From Rhodococcus sp. SGAir0479 (lineage in GTDB: Bacteria > Actinomycetota > Actinomycetes > Mycobacteriales > Mycobacteriaceae), in the NCBI RefSeq assembly GCF_005484805.1, contig NZ_CP039432.1:2232001-2296000 (forward strand): a stretch of DNA of 64,000 nt, in the 5' to 3' direction. The translations under genes were made by a program, and so were the position numbers. Of this stretch, positions 17,491 to 26,133 are shown piece after piece (within the stretch, counting starts at the first letter, position 1; every line of letters begins with the position of its first letter). The notes below the pieces were generated by a model. That model was not told the origin of the DNA. It did not search any database and was given only the letters and a program-made list of their open reading frames with translations.

Positions 17491-18246
17491 GTGACTCCGC
17501 CGCTGATCGCCGTCGCCCACGGCAGCCGTGATCCCCGATCCGCTCGGGTGGTCACGGCGGCCGTGGCGGCGATCCGCGCGCATCGGCCGGGGCTCGATGT
17601 CCGGCTGTGTTTTCTCGATCTGACTGCGCCGTCGGTGGATCAGGTGGTGGACGCGGTGGCCGCCGAGGGGCATTCCGCCGCGGTGGTGGTGCCGCTGCTG
17701 CTCGGCAGCGCGTTCCACGCCCGCGTGGACCTGCCCGGGATCCTGGCGGCCGCGCGCAGGCGACATCCGCAGTTGACGCTCACCCAATCGGACGTCCTGG
17801 GACACGACCACCGCCTGGTCGGCGCCGTCCGGGACCGCGTCGTCGCGACCGGTGTCGGTGTCGACGACGGTGCGGCCGGTGTCGTGCTTGCCGCCGTGGG
17901 GTCGTCCGACGCCCGCGCGAACGAGCGCACCCGGGATCTCGCGTCGGTCCTCGCCGCGGGCACCCACTGGGCCGGCGCGACGGCCTGCTTCGCGACCGCG
18001 GCCGAGCCGTCGGTGGCGGGAGCCGTCTCACACCTGCGCTCGCGAGGGGTCGAGCGCATCGTGATCGCCCCGTGGTTCCTCGCTCCCGGACGCCTGACCG
18101 ACCGGCTCGGCAGGGCGGCGCTCGACGCGGCTCCCGACGCTATCCTCGCCGACACCATCGGGGCGCACCGACACGTCGCCCACGTCGCAATCGATCGGTA
18201 CGACGCCGCGTCGACGGCAGCGCGCCGAGCGCGACTGTCGGCCTGA
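17491..18246 (+). CDS. sirB: Sirohydrochlorin ferrochelatase (CbiX/SirB-like)
   Basis: A CbiX/SirB-family chelatase of 251 residues with two tandem CbiX-like halves. The first half starts with the diagnostic VAHGSRDPRSARV motif, where His is the metal ligand. The second half contains VGSSDARANERTRDL and ends in FLAPGRLTDRLG. It would insert Fe2+ into sirohydrochlorin to make the siroheme that the operon's sulfite reductase needs. GTG start 2 bases after the cysN stop. M. tuberculosis has a comparable gene (Rv2393) at the same place. Last gene of the operon, converging on the next gene with 13 bases between. Confidence 0.9.
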   Translation: MTPPLIAVAHGSRDPRSARVVTAAVAAIRAHRPGLDVRLCFLDLTAPSVDQVVDAVAAEGHSAAVVVPLLLGSAFHARVDLPGILAAARRRHPQLTLTQSDVLGHDHRLVGAVRDRVVATGVGVDDGAAGVVLAAVGSSDARANERTRDLASVLAAGTHWAGATACFATAAEPSVAGAVSHLRSRGVERIVIAPWFLAPGRLTDRLGRAALDAAPDAILADTIGAHRHVAHVAIDRYDAASTAARRARLSA

Positions 18247-18259
18247 GAGTGCCGCGGGC

Positions 18260-19033
18260 TCACACCCGCAGCGCCCCCAGTGAAGCTTCGACGAGATCGA
18301 ATCCGAGTTCTGGGTGAATGGCACCGGTTCTGTCCATGCGGCCGAACCACGTACCGTCCGCCTCCGGGTGGGGGCCGACGACCCCCACCCGCCCGGCGCC
18401 GTACGGGGCAACGAGGGCTGCGGGCTGACCACCCGCATAGGTGGCCAGAATTTCCGCCTGCCCGCCCGCTATCCGGAATGCCGGCCCGTCCTGAAAGAAG
18501 AGGGTCTGCGCCGCCCCACGCCAGTTCACAGTGATCCGGGACGCGCCGGCGGTTTTCACCGTTGCGTCCGGAGCCGAGATATATCGCCAGGTGTCGCCCG
18601 GCAGGAGGCCGAACCCGGGAGTGGCGCCGGCCAGATATCCGCCGAGACAAAATCCTAGGTAGACGCCGCCGTCCCCGACATACCGTCGAACGATGTCGGC
18701 ATACTCGCTCATCGCCGCCCACCCCGTCGCCAAGGTCGGGCCACCCGGCTGCGCATAGACCGCTGCATTCGCGAGGGCGGAAGCGGTCAGCGGTGTCTGC
18801 TCGCCCGGCCCGACGTAGACGGTTCGGAAGTTGCGGGGGCAGTTCTGTAGCAGTGTCGCGACCGCCTCCGGGCAGCCCGGGGATGACGCGGGGCCGCGGT
18901 AGACCGCCGCCAACGGCCGCGATTCGGCACCTGCCCGCAGGGCCGGCACCGGGGCGGCCGAGGCGAACTTCGGTGTCAATGCCAGCGCGCACGCCGCGCC
19001 GACGCCGGTCAGAAACCCTCGCCGATCCACCAT
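18260..19033 (-). CDS. Tat-exported BPL_N-type amidotransferase-like protein
   Basis: A 257-residue protein with a twin-arginine signal (VDRRGFLTG, then a hydrophobic run and cleavage near ASAAP at 24-28), so probably folded in the cytoplasm and exported. The mature part matches the biotin-protein-ligase N-terminal (BPL_N) branch of class I glutamine amidotransferases. The nucleophile is C129 in LGFCLGGYLAG, and the H222/E224 dyad lies in GPHPEADG. ATG 19033 has GGGG 9 bases upstream; ATG 19039 is the alternative. It is a clear paralogue of the protein at 23409-24095, and the two flank the Pls synthetase. Function unknown; hydrolase or amidase action on the Pls product is my hypothesis. Confidence 0.85.
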   Translation of the reverse strand: MVDRRGFLTGVGAACALALTPKFASAAPVPALRAGAESRPLAAVYRGPASSPGCPEAVATLLQNCPRNFRTVYVGPGEQTPLTASALANAAVYAQPGGPTLATGWAAMSEYADIVRRYVGDGGVYLGFCLGGYLAGATPGFGLLPGDTWRYISAPDATVKTAGASRITVNWRGAAQTLFFQDGPAFRIAGGQAEILATYAGGQPAALVAPYGAGRVGVVGPHPEADGTWFGRMDRTGAIHPELGFDLVEASLGALRV

Positions 19034-19342
19034 CGTCATCGTCCCCTCACCGCTCGTCGCACCGTCCCCGCCTGTGACCGCGGTCTCAATTTTGCCCGAT
19101 AAAGGGTGAAAAATGGGGTGAAGTCCCGATGCGTCGTTATTTGCCGTAGCACTGACAGCGGGAATTCGGAGTCGCCGTCGAAGAGTCCCGCGACCAAAAC
19201 GCCCTATAGAACAGGCTAGTACTGAGCTGCGGAGATAACTTTCGTTACTTCGAACTTCGTTGTGATTCGGTGTCTTTCCGCACGCCCGCGACGGGACCTC
19301 GACGCCCGAGAACACTGCCGAACCTCGGCCGACGAATGCCCC

Positions 19343-19378
19343 TAACATTCCTGCGGCCAGACCTAGACGGACGTCTAG
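19343..19378 (+). promoter_or_regulatory. Putative promoter and operator of the Pls gene
   Basis: The 400-base divergent stretch 19034-19434 has no gene. It holds a -10-like TAACAT (19343-19348) and, just downstream, the inverted repeat CTAGAC-ggac-GTCTAG (19363-19378), 57 bases before the Pls ATG. The repeat overlaps the likely start of the transcript, so it could be a repressor site or a 5' UTR hairpin. Lower GC than its surroundings is also visible at 19080-19270. No regulator gene is adjacent. Confidence 0.4.
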
Positions 19379-19434
19379 TCTGCTTTCGGCGGTCGGGGGG
19401 CCGGAGTAACTCTTCGCACACACTGGAGTCTCCG

Positions 19435-22400
19435 ATGCACAATTTGGCAGTTTCGGAAGTGGACGACGCCGCTGCCCGACGGGAACGGTCGCGCCCGCGG
19501 CGCCTGAACCACGTTTTCGAGGATGCTTGCGACCGAACACCTTTCGCGTGGGCGCTCGAATGCGGCGAAACCGAGTTCACGTATGCCGAGCTGGACGCGA
19601 GTGCCAACAGGCTCGCCCATCTGTTGATCGATCACGGCATCGGAGTAGGTGCTCGGATCGCCCTTCTGCTCGAGCGGTCGCCGGCGACGTACATCGCGCT
19701 GCTCGCCTCGCTCAAGTCGGGCGCCACGTTCGTTCCTGTCGACCCGGGCGCCCCGCCGGATCGGATCGACTACATCATTTCCGACGCAGACGTCGATCTG
19801 GTGCTCACGTCGTCCTCCTTCGCGAACGCTCTCTCCGCGCTCGGCCGGCCCCGTCTCGAACTCGACACCCTTTCCGACAGTTGCCGCCGCTATCCGTCGT
19901 CCCGCCCGGTGCTCGACGTCCCCGCCGATCTCGACCCGGTGTGTTACGTGATCTACACCTCCGGATCCACCGGAAAACCCAAGGGCGTCGCGGTTGCCCA
20001 GTCGAGCATCTGCAACTTCCTCGACGTCGTTCCGGAAATCTACGACGTACAACCCACCGACCGCGTCTACCAGGGGATGACGATCTCCTTCGACTTCTCC
20101 ATCGAGGAGATCTGGCCGACGTGGGCGCGCGGTGCCACACTCGTGGCCGGCCCGACCGGGTCCGGACGACTGGGCGCCGATCTCGCCGATTTTCTCGAAG
20201 AGCGCCGCGTCACCAAGCTGTACTGCGTGCCGACCCTCCTCGCCACGATCCCCCGTGACCTTCCGCAGCTACGAACCATTCTCGTCGGCGGTGAGGCATG
20301 TCCGGGTGAGCTCGTCGAGCGGTGGTCGCGCCCGGGCCGGCGGATCCTCAACACCTACGGGCCCACCGAGGCCACGGTCACCGCAACCTGGGGCGAGCTG
20401 CTACCGGGGCGACTCGTCACCATCGGACGACCGCTGCCGACCTACTCGGTGGTGATCCTCGACGAGCATCGCGTTCCGGTCCCGGACGGGGAGATCGGTG
20501 AAATCTGCATCGGCGGACCCGGTGTCGCGCGCGGATACGTGGGCAGGCCCGAGCAGACGGCGGAGCGTTTCATCGTCCACCCGAGCGGCGGTGACGGAAA
20601 GCTCTACCGCACAGGAGATCTCGGCCGAATTGTCGAAGACGGTGAAATCGAGTACTTGGGACGGGCGGACAGCGAGATCAAGATCCGAGGCCATCGGGTG
20701 GACCTCGGGGAGATCGAGAGCGTCCTGCTCGAGGATCCCGAAGTCGCCACGGGCGTCGTGTCTCTCGTGGACGTCGCCGGCACAGGCGAGCTGGCCGCCT
20801 ACGTCTCCTTGCGTACCGGATCGCATCGGCCCGCGCGCGCCGGAGTGGACGGCGAATCCGTGCTCGTCGACCGTCTTCTCGACGCCCTCCACCGACGGCT
20901 ACCCCACTACATGATCCCGGCCTATCTCGACATCGTCGACGAGCTGCCGACCATGCCCAGCGGCAAAGTGGACCGGACCAGGCTGCCGGCACCCGGACGG
21001 CGCCGGAGTCTGCACCACGGCGGGCCCGTGGTCGCGCCGGCGACCGATCGCGAGAGCCGAGTACGCGCCGTGTGCGCCGACGTCCTGGGAGTGGACGCGA
21101 CCACACTGTCCGTGGAGTCCGACTTCTTCACGGAGTTGGGAGGGCACTCCCTGGCGGCGGCCAAACTCGTCTCCACACTGCGCGAGAGCGAGATTCGCGA
21201 GATCGGGCTCCGCGATGTGTATGCCCACCCGACGGTGCGTGCGCTCGCAGCCCGGCTCGACACCGTCGACGGCGCTCGTCGAGCATCCCCGCCCCGCGCC
21301 GAGGCACTCGGGCACGACGACGTTCCTGTCCGCCGGGCCGGGACGGTGCAAGCGAGCGCGTTGTTGTTTCTGCTCCTCGTCGTGACGCTTCCGGTGTCTG
21401 TCGTCTACAGCATTCACGGAGGTCGGCCGTCGTTCGTGGTTCTCCGCGATCTGTTGGTCGCGACGGTTCCCACCTATCTGGGTGTTCGATGGGTTCTGCC
21501 GGTGCTACTGGTCCGGCCCCTCTCGCGCGGCATCCGCCCCGGTCGCTATCCGCTGTGGGGAACGACGTATCTGAGGTTGTGGGCGGTGGACCGGTTGCTG
21601 GCCCTGTCGCCGAGTCCGGTGCTCGCCGGGTCGCCGATCATGGCCCCGTTCCTGCGCGCACTCGGGGCGAGGGTGGGCCGGGACACCGAGATCTGCACCG
21701 GCACGATCCCGCTGCCGGCTCTGGTCCGGATCGGCGACCGCGTCTCGGTCGGCTACAACACCGACCTGCGAGCGTGGCGGGTCGAGGCCGGCTGGGTGAT
21801 CGTCGGCGAAGTCGTCATCGAGGACGGCGCGTTCGTCGGTTCCGACAGCGTGCTCGAACCGGGGGCCCACATCGAGGTCGGCGCCATGCTCGCCGACCAG
21901 TCCGTGGTCGACGCCGACCGAACGCTACCCGCCCGCAGCCGGTATGCGGGATCTCCGTCTCGGCCCGTCGCCGCACTGAGCCCCGCTGTCGAAGCGATGG
22001 CCGCGGCACCACCGCCCCGATCGTGGTCGGCGCGCCTGTACGCGCTGTCGGTACTCGGCCTGGCCTCCCTCGAAGCGGCTGCCATCGCCGCCCTGTTCCC
22101 CAGTCTGATTCTGGTCTGGTACGTGCTTCTCACGTACGGCATGGTGTGGGCATTCATCGCAACGCTGGCATCCGGACCGCTCTACGTGCTCAGTGTGTGT
22201 GCCGTGGTGGCGGCCGGGAAACGAGTTCTGTTGCCCGACCCGCCCACCGGAACCCACAGTGCCCGTTCTACGCTGGGAATCCGTAAGTGGTTGGCCGACA
22301 AGCTGTTTCTCATGAGTCTGACCTACACCGGTTCTCTGTACGCGACGCTCTACACGGGGCCCTGGTTGCGTCTGCTCGGCGCCCGGGTCGGCCGCGGTGC

Positions 22401-23412
22401 CGAAGTGTCCACTGCCGCTCACATCGACCCGGACCTGCTCACGATCGGCGACGGGAGTTTCGTCGCGGACATGGCGAGCGTCGGCGGATCGTCGTTCTGC
22501 AACGGCTGGTTCACCCTCGACCACACCGTGGTCGGTGAGCGCGCATTCATCGGTAACGCGGCGCACGTTCCGGCCGGCGCCCGGACCGGAGACCGGTCGC
22601 TCGTCGGGGTCCTGACCGTTCCGCACGCCGATGGTGTCCCGGCCGATTCCTCCTGGCTCGGCTCACCTGCCATCCACCTGCCGGTGCGCCAGGACAGCGG
22701 AACCTACGACGAGTCGCAGACTTTCGCTCCCCCTCGGCAGGTTCTCGCGCACCGCTGGTTCATCGAGTTCTTCCGCGCGACCTTGCCGGCGACGTTGATC
22801 GGAGTCAGCTTGTTCTTCTACCTGCTGACGCTCTCGTTGACCGCGCGATCCCAGGGCCTGGCGGTGACGGTCCTGGTTGCGCCGCTGTTCGCTCTCGTCA
22901 CCGCGCTCGGCGTCGTCCTGTTCGCCGCCGCGCTCAAACGCAACATCGTGGGGGTCTACCGCCCGCGCGTGGAACCGCTGTGGGCACGGTTCGTCCGGCG
23001 AGCGGAATTCGCGACCGGCATCTACGAAGCGGCCGCGGTCCCGGTACTGCTCGACCAGCTCAGAGGGACGCCATTTCTGCCACTCGCTCTGCGTGGCTTC
23101 GGTGCCGACATCGGCAAGCGGGTTTGGATGGACACCACCTATCTGACCGAGTTCGACCTCGTACATATCGGCGACGATGCCGCCGTCGGCGCGAACGCGT
23201 CCCTGCAGACGCATCTGTTCGAGGACCGCGTGATGAAGATGTCGACCGTCACCGTCGCATCGGGTGCGACGGTCGGAACCCGCGCGATCGTGCTCTACGA
23301 CGCGACGGTCGGCCGTGACGCCACCCTCGGCACGCTGTCGCTCCTGATGAAGGGCGAGACGTTGCCGGACGAGACCCGCTGGAGCGGGATCCCTGCCGAG
23401 GCACTCCGATGA
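19435..23412 (+). CDS. Pls/PosA-type single-module NRPS (poly-amino-acid synthetase-like)
   Basis: A 1325-residue membrane NRPS with the architecture and length of epsilon-poly-L-lysine synthetase. The adenylation domain is at about 25-520: A3 YTSGSTGKPKG (174-184), A5 NTYGPTE (306-312), A7 YRTGDLGR (391-398), A10 lysine K511. The carrier domain has Ser572 in LGGHSL. Next comes the Pls-type C-terminal region: hydrophobic segments near 642-692, 868-925 and 1115-1165, alternating with three hexapeptide-repeat/C-like domains (about 743-840, 983-1078 and 1221-1320). No thioesterase is present. In the binding pocket D220 is followed by E224, which may suit a cationic amino acid (inference). ATG 19435 has GGAG 6 bases upstream. 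First gene of a three-gene overlapping operon. Confidence 0.9.
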   Translation: MHNLAVSEVDDAAARRERSRPRRLNHVFEDACDRTPFAWALECGETEFTYAELDASANRLAHLLIDHGIGVGARIALLLERSPATYIALLASLKSGATFVPVDPGAPPDRIDYIISDADVDLVLTSSSFANALSALGRPRLELDTLSDSCRRYPSSRPVLDVPADLDPVCYVIYTSGSTGKPKGVAVAQSSICNFLDVVPEIYDVQPTDRVYQGMTISFDFSIEEIWPTWARGATLVAGPTGSGRLGADLADFLEERRVTKLYCVPTLLATIPRDLPQLRTILVGGEACPGELVERWSRPGRRILNTYGPTEATVTATWGELLPGRLVTIGRPLPTYSVVILDEHRVPVPDGEIGEICIGGPGVARGYVGRPEQTAERFIVHPSGGDGKLYRTGDLGRIVEDGEIEYLGRADSEIKIRGHRVDLGEIESVLLEDPEVATGVVSLVDVAGTGELAAYVSLRTGSHRPARAGVDGESVLVDRLLDALHRRLPHYMIPAYLDIVDELPTMPSGKVDRTRLPAPGRRRSLHHGGPVVAPATDRESRVRAVCADVLGVDATTLSVESDFFTELGGHSLAAAKLVSTLRESEIREIGLRDVYAHPTVRALAARLDTVDGARRASPPRAEALGHDDVPVRRAGTVQASALLFLLLVVTLPVSVVYSIHGGRPSFVVLRDLLVATVPTYLGVRWVLPVLLVRPLSRGIRPGRYPLWGTTYLRLWAVDRLLALSPSPVLAGSPIMAPFLRALGARVGRDTEICTGTIPLPALVRIGDRVSVGYNTDLRAWRVEAGWVIVGEVVIEDGAFVGSDSVLEPGAHIEVGAMLADQSVVDADRTLPARSRYAGSPSRPVAALSPAVEAMAAAPPPRSWSARLYALSVLGLASLEAAAIAALFPSLILVWYVLLTYGMVWAFIATLASGPLYVLSVCAVVAAGKRVLLPDPPTGTHSARSTLGIRKWLADKLFLMSLTYTGSLYATLYTGPWLRLLGARVGRGAEVSTAAHIDPDLLTIGDGSFVADMASVGGSSFCNGWFTLDHTVVGERAFIGNAAHVPAGARTGDRSLVGVLTVPHADGVPADSSWLGSPAIHLPVRQDSGTYDESQTFAPPRQVLAHRWFIEFFRATLPATLIGVSLFFYLLTLSLTARSQGLAVTVLVAPLFALVTALGVVLFAAALKRNIVGVYRPRVEPLWARFVRRAEFATGIYEAAAVPVLLDQLRGTPFLPLALRGFGADIGKRVWMDTTYLTEFDLVHIGDDAAVGANASLQTHLFEDRVMKMSTVTVASGATVGTRAIVLYDATVGRDATLGTLSLLMKGETLPDETRWSGIPAEALR

Positions 23413-24095
23413 GGGGGGCGGATCGTCCACTCGCGCTCGTCTATCGCGGACGGGCGACGTTGCCGGGCTGCGCCGAATCCGTGGCCGAACTCCTGCGGCG
23501 CAGCCGGTGGAACTTCGATGTCCGGTATGTCGGCCCACGCGAACGTCTTCCGCTCACCGTCGACGTACTCGCCGGGGCCGCGCTCTACGCACAGCCGGGT
23601 GGCGGGACGCTGCGCCCCGCGTGGCGCCGGATGCGTCCGTATGACGAGGCACTTCGCGACTTCGTCGCCGCCGGCGGCCGGTACCTCGGCTTCTGCCTCG
23701 GCGGCTACCTCGCCGGCGCCACTCCCGGTTTCGACCTGCTCCCCGGTGACACCGACCGCTACATCAGCTCGAAGGCCGCCACCGTACACTCCGCTCGCCC
23801 CACCGTGGTGGCAGTCGATTGGCGACACCGCCGGCGCCACATGTACTTCCAGGACGGAGCTGTCTTCCGGGTGGATCGATACGCGCCCGGACTCGACGTC
23901 ATCGCCACCTATCCCAACGGGGAGATCGCGGCCCTGGCAACCGACTACGGAAACGGGCGGGTCGCCGCCGTCGGACCGCACCCGGAGGCCGATCGCGACT
24001 GGTTTGCGGACGCCGACTTGTCTCGACCTGCCGACGACACCCGCGACGCGGGGCTGGAACTAGTGGATGCGGTGATGATCCGACATGAGCGCTGA
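23409..24095 (+). CDS. Cytoplasmic BPL_N-type amidotransferase-like protein
   Basis: A 228-residue paralogue of the Tat-exported protein at 18260-19033, sharing YAQPGGG/TL, YLGFCLGGYLAGATPGF and VGPHPEAD. The class I amidotransferase triad is intact: C96, H191 and E193. It has no signal peptide, so it should stay in the cytoplasm. The ATG overlaps the Pls stop by 4 bases, a strong sign of co-translation with the synthetase. Its role is unknown; it could process, release or amidate the Pls product on the inner side of the membrane, but this is inference. Confidence 0.85.
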   Translation: MRGADRPLALVYRGRATLPGCAESVAELLRRSRWNFDVRYVGPRERLPLTVDVLAGAALYAQPGGGTLRPAWRRMRPYDEALRDFVAAGGRYLGFCLGGYLAGATPGFDLLPGDTDRYISSKAATVHSARPTVVAVDWRHRRRHMYFQDGAVFRVDRYAPGLDVIATYPNGEIAALATDYGNGRVAAVGPHPEADRDWFADADLSRPADDTRDAGLELVDAVMIRHER

Positions 24096-25332
24096 CATGG
24101 ACAACGTCGACACGTCCACCCCGACCGGACCGCCAATCGTCCGGAGGGTCGACAGAAGTGAGCGACTGACCGCGATCGACGCGGTACGCGGGCTCGCGGT
24201 GTTCGGCATGATCGCGGTGCACTCCCTCCCCGCCTACGACGAAACCACCGGCGAGCCGACGTGGACGTACAGCCTGGCAGCCGGACGCGCATCGGCCGTC
24301 TTCGCAGTCCTGGCCGGAGTCGGTATTGCGTTCCTGTCCCGGCGGCGGCGCCAGACTCGCGGCGTCGAGGCGCGATCGATCGCCTGGGCGCTGGCCGCGC
24401 GCGCTGTCACGATCGCAGCGATCGGACTCGCGCTCGGTTTCACCGACAGCACGTACGGCGTCGTCATCCTCGTCGCGTACGGCGCGATGTTCTTCCTCGC
24501 AATACCGTTGATCTATCTGAGCACCCGGGTTCTCGCGGTGGTCACCGTGGTGCTGACGGTGGGCACTCCCCTCCTCAGCCAGGTGCTGCGACCGGCACTG
24601 CCGCAGCGCTTCGACGCCCAGTTGTCGTTCGGTCTCCTGTGGGACGATCCCGCGCGGTTCCTCTCCGACGTCATGTTCACCGGTGAATTCCCGGCACTGG
24701 TGTGGACGAGCTACGTGTGCCTCGGCCTCCTGGTCGGGCGACTCTCGCTGACCTCACTGCGCACCGCCGTCACACTGGCCGCGGCCGGACTGTCGATGAT
24801 GGTGTCGGCGATGCTGGCGTCGAAGGCGATCCTGGGGCCGGTCGGTGGCCGGACGCGACTCGAGTGGGTCATGGCTCCCGATCCGAACCGAACCGTCGAC
24901 GAGTTCCTCACCTTCGGCGCCGACGGCACCGTACCCACGAACTCCTGGTGGTGGCTCGGCCTTTCGGCCCCACACACCGGAACCCCGCTGGACCTCCTGG
25001 CGACCATGGGCAGCGCCCTGCTCGTCCTCGGCGGGTGCCTCGCGCTGACGCACGTGACCCGGCCGTTCTGGTCCACCGTCGTCCGCACAATTCTCGCCCC
25101 GCTGGCGGCGGTGGGCAGCATGTCGCTCACGGTCTACGTCGGCCACATCCTCTTCGTGAACTCGGACTTCGACCATTACGGCCCGACGGAGGGTTACGTC
25201 CGTCAAGCGGTGGTCATCGTCCTGCTGGCACTGGCGTGGCGCGCCACCGCAGGTCGGGGTCCCCTCGAGGGCCTCGTCCGGGCCGTGACGACGCGGGTCC
25301 GAGCGAACGTGATCGCGAGGGGGCACCCATGA
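24085..25332 (+). CDS. Multi-pass membrane acyltransferase-like protein (DUF418/HGSNAT-like)
   Basis: A 415-residue protein with about ten hydrophobic helices. It opens with RLTAIDAVRGLAVFGMIAVHS, the hallmark first helix of the DUF1624/DUF418 and heparan-alpha-glucosaminide N-acetyltransferase superfamily. The conserved His on helix 1 is present. Such proteins move acyl groups across the membrane, although many DUF418 members have no known substrate. The gene overlaps the preceding one by 11 bases, so it belongs to the Pls operon. An ATG at 24097 is an alternative start. N-acylation of the Pls product is a reasonable but untested role. Confidence 0.8.
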   Translation: MSADMDNVDTSTPTGPPIVRRVDRSERLTAIDAVRGLAVFGMIAVHSLPAYDETTGEPTWTYSLAAGRASAVFAVLAGVGIAFLSRRRRQTRGVEARSIAWALAARAVTIAAIGLALGFTDSTYGVVILVAYGAMFFLAIPLIYLSTRVLAVVTVVLTVGTPLLSQVLRPALPQRFDAQLSFGLLWDDPARFLSDVMFTGEFPALVWTSYVCLGLLVGRLSLTSLRTAVTLAAAGLSMMVSAMLASKAILGPVGGRTRLEWVMAPDPNRTVDEFLTFGADGTVPTNSWWWLGLSAPHTGTPLDLLATMGSALLVLGGCLALTHVTRPFWSTVVRTILAPLAAVGSMSLTVYVGHILFVNSDFDHYGPTEGYVRQAVVIVLLALAWRATAGRGPLEGLVRAVTTRVRANVIARGHP

Positions 25333-25341
25333 GCGCCCCCG

Positions 25342-26133
25342 TCAGGAGACGGCGTTCCCGGAGCGGCTGAACGTGAGGTCGCCCAGGTCGGCCTCGGCAA
25401 CCTCGAACGGCATCCGCAACACGGTGGCGGTCGCCCACCCGTCATGGAGGAGTACGGCGTCGCTGTCGCCGGAACTGTCGATTTCCACCTTCCGAAACGT
25501 CACGGTCACCGCACGCGACTCGTCCCCGTTCTCCTCGACGTCGCCGATCTCGGCCTGCACTGCACCGAACTCCGCCAGCGGGGCAGCACGCAATCCGAGC
25601 AGGCCGTCGATCGGGACATCCGGGATGTTCACGTTGAGCACCCTCCCGGGCGCTGCGTGCTCGACGGCCCATCGAACTGCGTGCGACGCGACGGCCTCCG
25701 CCGTCTCCCAGTCGGACGGTGAGGGCTGGTCGAGCGACAGCGCCACGCCGCGGGCGCCGTGCGCGGCCGCGGTCAGAACGGCGCCGACCGTTCCGGAGTG
25801 GAGGATCGCATGCCCCGTGTTGGGTCCGAGATTGATGCCGGACAACACGAGGTCCGGCGCCGGGCCGAAAGCCCCGTGCGCTGCGACGAAGGCGATCATC
25901 GCGGGTGAGGCTTCCACCGCGAGCACCTCCACCCCGGGCAGGTCCGGCATGGTCCGGCGCGAGAGCATGAGCTTTCCGTCGTCCTCGAGAGCGGACAACG
26001 ACGCACTCGCACCGCTGCGCTCCACATGCGGCGCGGCCACCTGCACCTCGAGACCGGCGGCGACCGCGACGCGGGCCAGAACTGCGAGGCCCGGACTGTC
26101 GATTCCGTCGTCGTTGACGATGAGTGCCCTCAT
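25342..26133 (-). CDS. surE: 5'/3'-nucleotidase SurE
   Basis: SurE is a metal-dependent survival phosphatase acting on nucleoside 5'- and 3'-monophosphates. The 263-residue protein starts with the canonical RALIVNDDGIDSPGL, where D8 and D9 are metal ligands. It continues with ERSGASASLS and SGINLGPNTGHAILHSGTVGA. The ATG at 26133 overlaps the stop of the upstream PfkB-kinase gene (ATGA), showing coupling. It converges with the Pls operon, with only 9 bases between stops. Confidence 0.94.
   Translation of the reverse strand: MRALIVNDDGIDSPGLAVLARVAVAAGLEVQVAAPHVERSGASASLSALEDDGKLMLSRRTMPDLPGVEVLAVEASPAMIAFVAAHGAFGPAPDLVLSGINLGPNTGHAILHSGTVGAVLTAAAHGARGVALSLDQPSPSDWETAEAVASHAVRWAVEHAAPGRVLNVNIPDVPIDGLLGLRAAPLAEFGAVQAEIGDVEENGDESRAVTVTFRKVEIDSSGDSDAVLLHDGWATATVLRMPFEVAEADLGDLTFSRSGNAVS

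Follow-up and report, generated by a model that had tools for sequence, protein, structure and literature searches.

A Pls-Type Poly-amino-acid Synthetase Operon with Amidotransferase-Fold Proteins and a Transmembrane Acyltransferase in Rhodococcus sp. SGAir0479

Described Pls Systems and the Rhodococcus Locus

The best described relatives of the operon discussed here are the pls-pldII operons of Streptomyces albulus and Corynebacterium variabile, the poly-diaminobutyrate (poly-Dab) and poly-diaminopropionate (poly-Dap) synthetases PldA, PddA and PDAPs, and PosA of Acinetobacter baumannii, which makes delta-poly-L-ornithine. The locus lies in a stretch of 64,000 nucleotides from Rhodococcus sp. 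SGAir0479 (contig NZ_CP039432.1, positions 2,232,001 to 2,296,000), called the window throughout. A gene for a Pls-type synthetase is followed there, with overlaps, by genes for a protein with the class I glutamine amidotransferase (GATase) fold, named GAT1, and for a transmembrane acyltransferase (TmAT), and a divergent gene encodes a second protein of the GAT family, GAT2. On balance, the operon probably combines a synthetase for a polycation of a short diamino acid with two thiol amidohydrolases that cut the polymer and a TmAT protein that transfers acyl groups.

The pls-pldII operon has been published (PMC8117764), and PldII is described as a metallopeptidase that is translationally coupled to pls, is located outside the membrane, is self-protective and affects chain length (PMC9223678); these papers, like the others cited here by PMC number, are represented by the parts consulted. 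As in the Rhodococcus operon, the synthetase consists of an adenylation domain, a peptidyl carrier protein (PCP) domain and three tandem membrane domains, and a degrading enzyme, for which the candidate here is the GAT, is coupled to pls or shares its operon (PMC8117764, PMC9223678). The window differs in its adenylation code (DFEYLGTVTK, not DAESIGTVVK), in that the coupled gene encodes a GATase-fold thiol protein instead of a metallopeptidase, and in the addition of an exported GAT and the TmAT acyltransferase. The poly-Dab and poly-Dap synthetases share Phe at code position 2 with the window's Pls (PMC10522769), which groups with an aminotransferase-linked Pls, yet no such aminotransferase gene occurs in the 53 loci fetched with GAT1 as sole query; a GAT linkage goes unmentioned in the consulted parts of this literature. 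PosA (code DMEHNGTVSK) has the Asp/Glu pair and the G-T-V core in common with the window's Pls, but carries Met in place of Phe and stands in a single-gene operon (PMC10522769).

The acyltransferase is about 16% identical to HGSNAT, from which it differs in its presumed acceptor, a polyamine peptide and not a sugar. GAT1, at 10-21% identity in the compared rows, shares its fold with Pdx2, HisH and the gamma-glutamyl peptidase GGP1, all of which carry a Cys-His-Glu triad; unlike them, the GATs occur in two compartments and are linked to Pls, not to a tunnel-forming synthase. A literature search by title and start of abstract, with most subscription papers (the 2020 poly-Dab paper included) and supplements outside its coverage, returned neither a GATase or BPL_N protein together with Pls nor a functional study of the stand-alone bacterial BPL_N family. 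The operon extends the Pls family in a genuine and conserved way that is undescribed as far as this search reaches, a main doubt being that the published PDAP and PDAB synthetases possibly belong to the same clade as the window's Pls.

Operon Organization

A first-pass annotation of this DNA had recognized pls, an amidotransferase-like gene and an acyltransferase gene as an overlapping operon. All positions and overlaps were confirmed, and its inventory of three genes holds except that GAT2, on the complementary strand, had been missed. The features are as follows.

GAT2: 18260..19039, minus strand; predicted exported paralogue of GAT1 with the BPL_N/class I GATase fold and a Tat-like signal (DRRGFL), divergent from pls
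pls: 19435..23412, plus strand; single-module membrane nonribosomal peptide synthetase of the Pls/PosA family, 1325 aa
Adenylation domain of Pls: 19516..20538, plus strand; code DFEYLGTVTK, with the last code residue downstream of the Pfam match
Carrier (PCP) domain of Pls: 21058..21258, plus strand; Pfam PP-binding
Pls/PosA membrane terminal region: 21379..23397, plus strand; TIGR02353, hydrophobic segments flanking hexapeptide-type domains
GAT1: 23409..24095, plus strand; predicted cytosolic class I GATase-fold protein with Cys96-His191-Glu193, overlapping pls by 4 nt
Transmembrane acyltransferase: 24085..25332, plus strand; HGSNAT/DUF418, TmAT fold, DxxRx10H motif (D32, R35, H46)

The pls frame is open from 19270 to 23412, and the ATG at 19435, with GGAG at 19425-19428, yields the 1325-residue protein. 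Its stop codon (TGA, 23410-23412) overlaps the ATG of GAT1 at 23409, and the end of GAT1 at 24095 overlaps the start of the acyltransferase gene at 24085 by 11 nt. The start codon of GAT2 (19039) was picked by eye and has GAGGGG upstream. No promoter was found in a scan of 18200-25500, and terminator matches in this region were near the mean of shuffled sequence (4 versus 2.3, standard deviation 1.4).

Conservation and Linkage

Gene content, linkage, signal-like N-termini, the conservation of triad and motifs, and folds were all computed. The Pls clade (at least 50% identity) is present in 10 of 101 related genomes, two of which (G008 and G091) hold Pls only in pieces. The GAT family is present in the same ten, a co-occurrence with a chance probability of 5e-14 when descent is ignored, and no GAT in them is more than about 4.2 kb away from its Pls match. 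Nine of the ten, and none of the 91 others (best listed match 39%), have an acyltransferase homologue with an identity of at least 42%; the tenth genome is G091, which holds only pieces. Consequently, the conserved coupling proposed in the first-pass annotation survives the comparison with relatives that this annotation had named as one that could refute it, and the joint occurrence of Pls clade, GAT and acyltransferase rules out a random neighborhood. Full-length weaker Pls matches (35-39% identical to the window's Pls) were counted from the listing in 66 of the 101 genomes.

A wider sample of 394 genomes from across the class yielded GAT in 11. The ten besides the window's own were searched again for Pls, and the clade was present in six and absent in four; the GATs of these four have signal-like N-termini, and one (L178) starts near a contig end. 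Pls was present in 50 of the 53 loci fetched with GAT1. Of the remaining ones, L025 is truncated by the end of its contig, and L041 and L046 are additional loci of two Dactylosporangium genomes whose complete loci are L015 and L010. An overlap of exactly 4 nt between the pls stop and a possible GAT start was seen in 28 of the 50 loci with Pls. The Pls-GAT1 pair is constant across these loci and the remaining genes vary: 38 have the acyltransferase, 19 an exported second GAT, 18 an M1 peptidase and 14 a DDAH-like gene.

Synthetase and Monomer

The synthetase matches the Pfam families AMP-binding (270.6 bits), PP-binding (50.8) and Hexapep (36.8) as well as the Pls/PosA terminal domain TIGR02353 of NCBIfam (564.8 bits versus a cut-off of 423.1), and no thioesterase was found among the six Pfam families matched. 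It thus has the composition of the Pls/PosA family, with adenylation and PCP domains followed by the membrane region and neither a condensation nor a thioesterase domain, which supports the earlier designation as a Pls-type homopolymer synthetase.

Two pocket residues noted in the first-pass annotation, D220 and E224, correspond to D275 and E279 of the longer reading frame and represent code positions one and three. The alignment suggested there gave the full ten-residue code, DFEYLGTVTK. The Asp and Glu of the Pls/PosA code bind the two amines of the monomer (PMC10522769), which supports the cationic substrate proposed earlier. According to the same paper, which describes PosA, code position 2 is Ala in lysine enzymes, Met in ornithine enzymes and Phe in enzymes for 2,3-diaminopropionate (Dap) or 2,4-diaminobutyrate (Dab). 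Because the window's Pls carries Phe in place of the Ala of epsilon-poly-lysine synthetases, lysine is an unlikely monomer, and by this rule the code favors a short diamino acid, namely Dab, Dap or ornithine. The G-T-V core resembles that of the ornithine enzyme.

For 48 of the 53 loci the code is legible, and each of these keeps D-F-E and G-T-V-T; among the 46 loci whose ten positions are all legible, 30 have exactly DFEYLGTVTK; the lysine-type rows L064-L083 read DAESIGTVVK without exception (20 of 20). DFECLSAVTK represents a third type, and the Pls that carries it (L153) adjoins a class III aminotransferase, as expected for poly-Dab. A fixed pairing of DFEC-type codes with an aminotransferase is ruled out by L157 (DFECLSVVTK), next to which a SpoIIE-type gene stands instead. 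In a tree of the C-terminal region, for which L157 was removed by a length filter and whose rows did not include a published PDAP synthetase, 32 lysine-type and 53 GAT-linked rows separate with full support, and L153, the sole aminotransferase-linked row, joins the GAT-linked side. The GAT-linked rows may share a single origin, although the placement of two long branches, L061 and L153, is unsure.

These data bear on the alternative that survives best, that this is a poly-Dap or poly-Dab operon of the published type whose neighbors have simply not been discussed. It is a serious candidate, although somewhat doubtful, and is compatible with the explanation of the GATs preferred here. It agrees with the Phe at code position 2, stated for PDAP and PDAB synthetases (PMC10522769), and with the grouping of L153 with the window's clade. 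However, DFEYLGTVTK and DFECLSAVTK differ at three positions (Y/C, G/S, T/A), and the adjacent diaminobutyrate aminotransferase of poly-Dab operons (pldA/dat type) is lacking: no homologue of the L153 enzyme was found within the fetched flanks of the 53 loci (tblastn, E value of 1e-12 or less) or in the window stretch 9001-33000. In addition, 5 of 13 hand-picked host genomes have neither dat nor an SbnA-type gene over the cut-off. Since dat (TIGR00709) was detected in eight of these genomes and an SbnA-type gene (TIGR03945) in two, neither is general, and precursor genes were dropped as a pointer to the monomer.

The GAT Proteins

GAT1 matches Pfam BPL_N with 52.2 bits (cut-off 24.2). For both GAT1 and GAT2 this is the only Pfam match, and the Peptidase_M1 match and HEXXH motif of PldII-type metallopeptidases are absent; instead, the family has the Cys-His-Glu triad on a GATase fold that defines class I (triad) GATases. 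GAT2 is 50% identical to GAT1 in the alignment, and its N-terminus, MTMVDRRGFLTGVGAACALALTPKFASAA, is of the Tat type, MVDRRGFLTGVGAACALALTPKFASAA. No BPL_N matches other than these two were found in the 4.97 Mb genome. Sequence searches of the PDB gave nothing significant for GAT1 (best E value 0.58) or for the GAT profile (best E value 0.11).

Export was judged by reading N-termini by eye and by a uniform test for an uncharged hydrophobic 14-mer before the domain. The first GATs compared were those of the window and of 49 of the 50 Pls loci, leaving out L043 (cut GAT1, no anchor) and fragments shorter than 350 bases. All 24 second GATs have the 14-mer, as do 6 of 7 GATs without Pls and 2 of 50 first GATs, and the last two (L005, L011) are doubtful, as the stretch spans or precedes the likely start. 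By eye, the second GATs have Tat, Sec or lipobox-like N-termini. A motif search also flagged RR motifs ahead of 13 first GATs, most of them located upstream of the probable start. Exported-looking GAT homologues with no Pls nearby were seen at L041, L046, L178, L179, L180 and L181.

Exported GATs and M1 Peptidases

The 19 loci with an exported GAT, a hand list drawn from the motif search and the N-termini read by eye, and the 18 loci with an M1 peptidase, out of 50, have no member in common (P 1.1e-5, with descent ignored). HEXXH is kept in all 35 M1 matches found, and the N-termini read for 13 of the 18 M1 peptidases of the GAT-linked clade resemble export signals or open into a hydrophobic segment. 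The genome has a second Pls (C1:4616585-4620373, L172) with the code DAESIGTVVK, directly followed by an M1 peptidase gene. PldII, too, presumably belongs to family M1. As the lysine-code Pls of this genome adjoins an M1 peptidase in the manner of pls-pldII, the GAT family is tied to the other Pls type, and it occupies a similar operon place to M1 and PldII. In Streptomyces pinistramenti (L016:3940-14479), a DFEY-type Pls, GAT1, a lysine-code Pls and an M1 peptidase stand in tandem on one strand.

The Acyltransferase

The acyltransferase exceeds the Pfam cut-offs for HGSNAT_cat (41.2) and DUF418 (25.4), and it combines the HGSNAT-like fold with a DxxR motif in the first helix, as TmAT proteins do. 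A search with its profile against PDB sequences gave nothing significant.

Proposed Mechanism and Alternatives

From these features we infer every catalytic step, substrate and product of the operon. Pls would adenylate the monomer, load it on its own carrier domain and build the chain in the membrane region, and the product would be a cationic homopolymer of a short diamino acid, joined by isopeptide bonds and secreted. In the cytosol, GAT1 probably acts with its Cys-His-Glu triad as a thiol amidohydrolase, which would work on chains at the synthetase by releasing, trimming or clearing them. The exported GAT2 is probably a thiol amidohydrolase that trims or recycles the polymer outside the cell, a role that M1 peptidases would fill in the sister loci and PldII in the poly-lysine operon. 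Finally, the TmAT/HGSNAT-like protein would take acyl groups from acyl-CoA in the cytosol and attach them to amines of the polymer outside, which would thereby become N-acylated.

The GATs are assigned as amidohydrolases and not as amidating enzymes because the exported GAT and the M1 peptidase exclude each other and because an M1 peptidase stands beside the lysine-code Pls in the place of PldII. Several observations speak against this assignment. On the Pls tree the exclusion rests on few changes, of which three concern the exported GAT and five M1, and is for this reason suggestive, not strong, and 13 of the 50 loci have neither gene within the fetched flanks. The analogy of place with PldII is imperfect, since the M1 peptidases beside lysine-code Pls show no obvious signal in three examples (L164, L169, L172). 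Exported GATs that stand alone show that members of the family can function with no Pls nearby, and the nearest folds of GAT1 are the true glutaminase subunits Pdx2 and HisH, ahead of the peptidase.

This last point leads to an unlikely alternative, in which GAT1 is a genuine glutamine amidotransferase: the ammonia that it frees from glutamine would either detach the polymer from the carrier domain, leaving it amidated at its C-terminus, or supply monomer synthesis. Class I GATases normally work with a synthase partner, and none was recognized among the conserved neighbors scanned. Furthermore, the exported branch, for which no ATP-driven acceptor enzyme is expected, alternates with M1 peptidases, making amidation less likely than trimming. 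Of the earlier interpretation, which had offered both, the trimming is thus favored; overall, its synthetase, coupling and cationic substrate stand, lysine is unlikely and amidation the less likely option, and N-acylation of the polymer stays at the level of a proposal. A role of the GATs as transacylases, with GAT2 attaching the polymer to a cell-wall amine or cross-linking it, so that it decorates the wall and is no soluble antimicrobial, would suit the acyl-enzyme intermediates of GATase-fold thiol enzymes and the Tat, Sec or lipobox-like N-termini of exported GATs, but is improbable given the lone exported GATs without Pls, the M1 peptidases that take their place and the lack of an apparent wall-specific gene among the conserved neighbor clusters, part of which were identified.

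A broader version of the amidohydrolase explanation is put forward tentatively: BPL_N/GATase-fold proteins may form a new class of thiol isopeptidases, in which coupled cytosolic members would serve release and length control, exported members would edit or detoxify, and lone copies would guard non-producers, the product being an acyl-capped, undescribed polycation. Chain release and length control have been called open for the PDAP synthetase (PMC4668381, in the part consulted), and a conserved, coupled candidate hydrolase with an exported twin makes this question directly testable. The locus also offers a possible function for the stand-alone bacterial BPL_N family and may lead to polycations modified by N-acylation, from which new antimicrobials or biomaterials could be drawn.

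Neighboring Genes and Other Observations

A gene resembling DDAH/arginine dihydrolase lies inside the 14 Pls-GAT loci counted above (e.g., L005:7105-7914 and L023:8702-9487). Its matches do not reach the curated thresholds of NCBI families, and it hints at ornithine or arginine chemistry. At L041, a GAT homologue stands beside a DDAH-like gene with Ser in place of the Cys of L005, which we take to be catalytic.

A TIGR00709 match of 460 bits (G000:C1:2296547-2297779), 547 bases past the end of the window and about 41 kb from pls, may be ectB. In G452, about 6 kb separate an SbnA-type gene from a Pls-terminal gene. Pls-like matches of adenylation and PCP domains with the code DIWQSTASDK or DIQQSTASDK were seen at L191, L192 and L159; a separate Pls-terminal match adjoins those at L191 and L192, the latter of which contains an HGSNAT-like gene as well.
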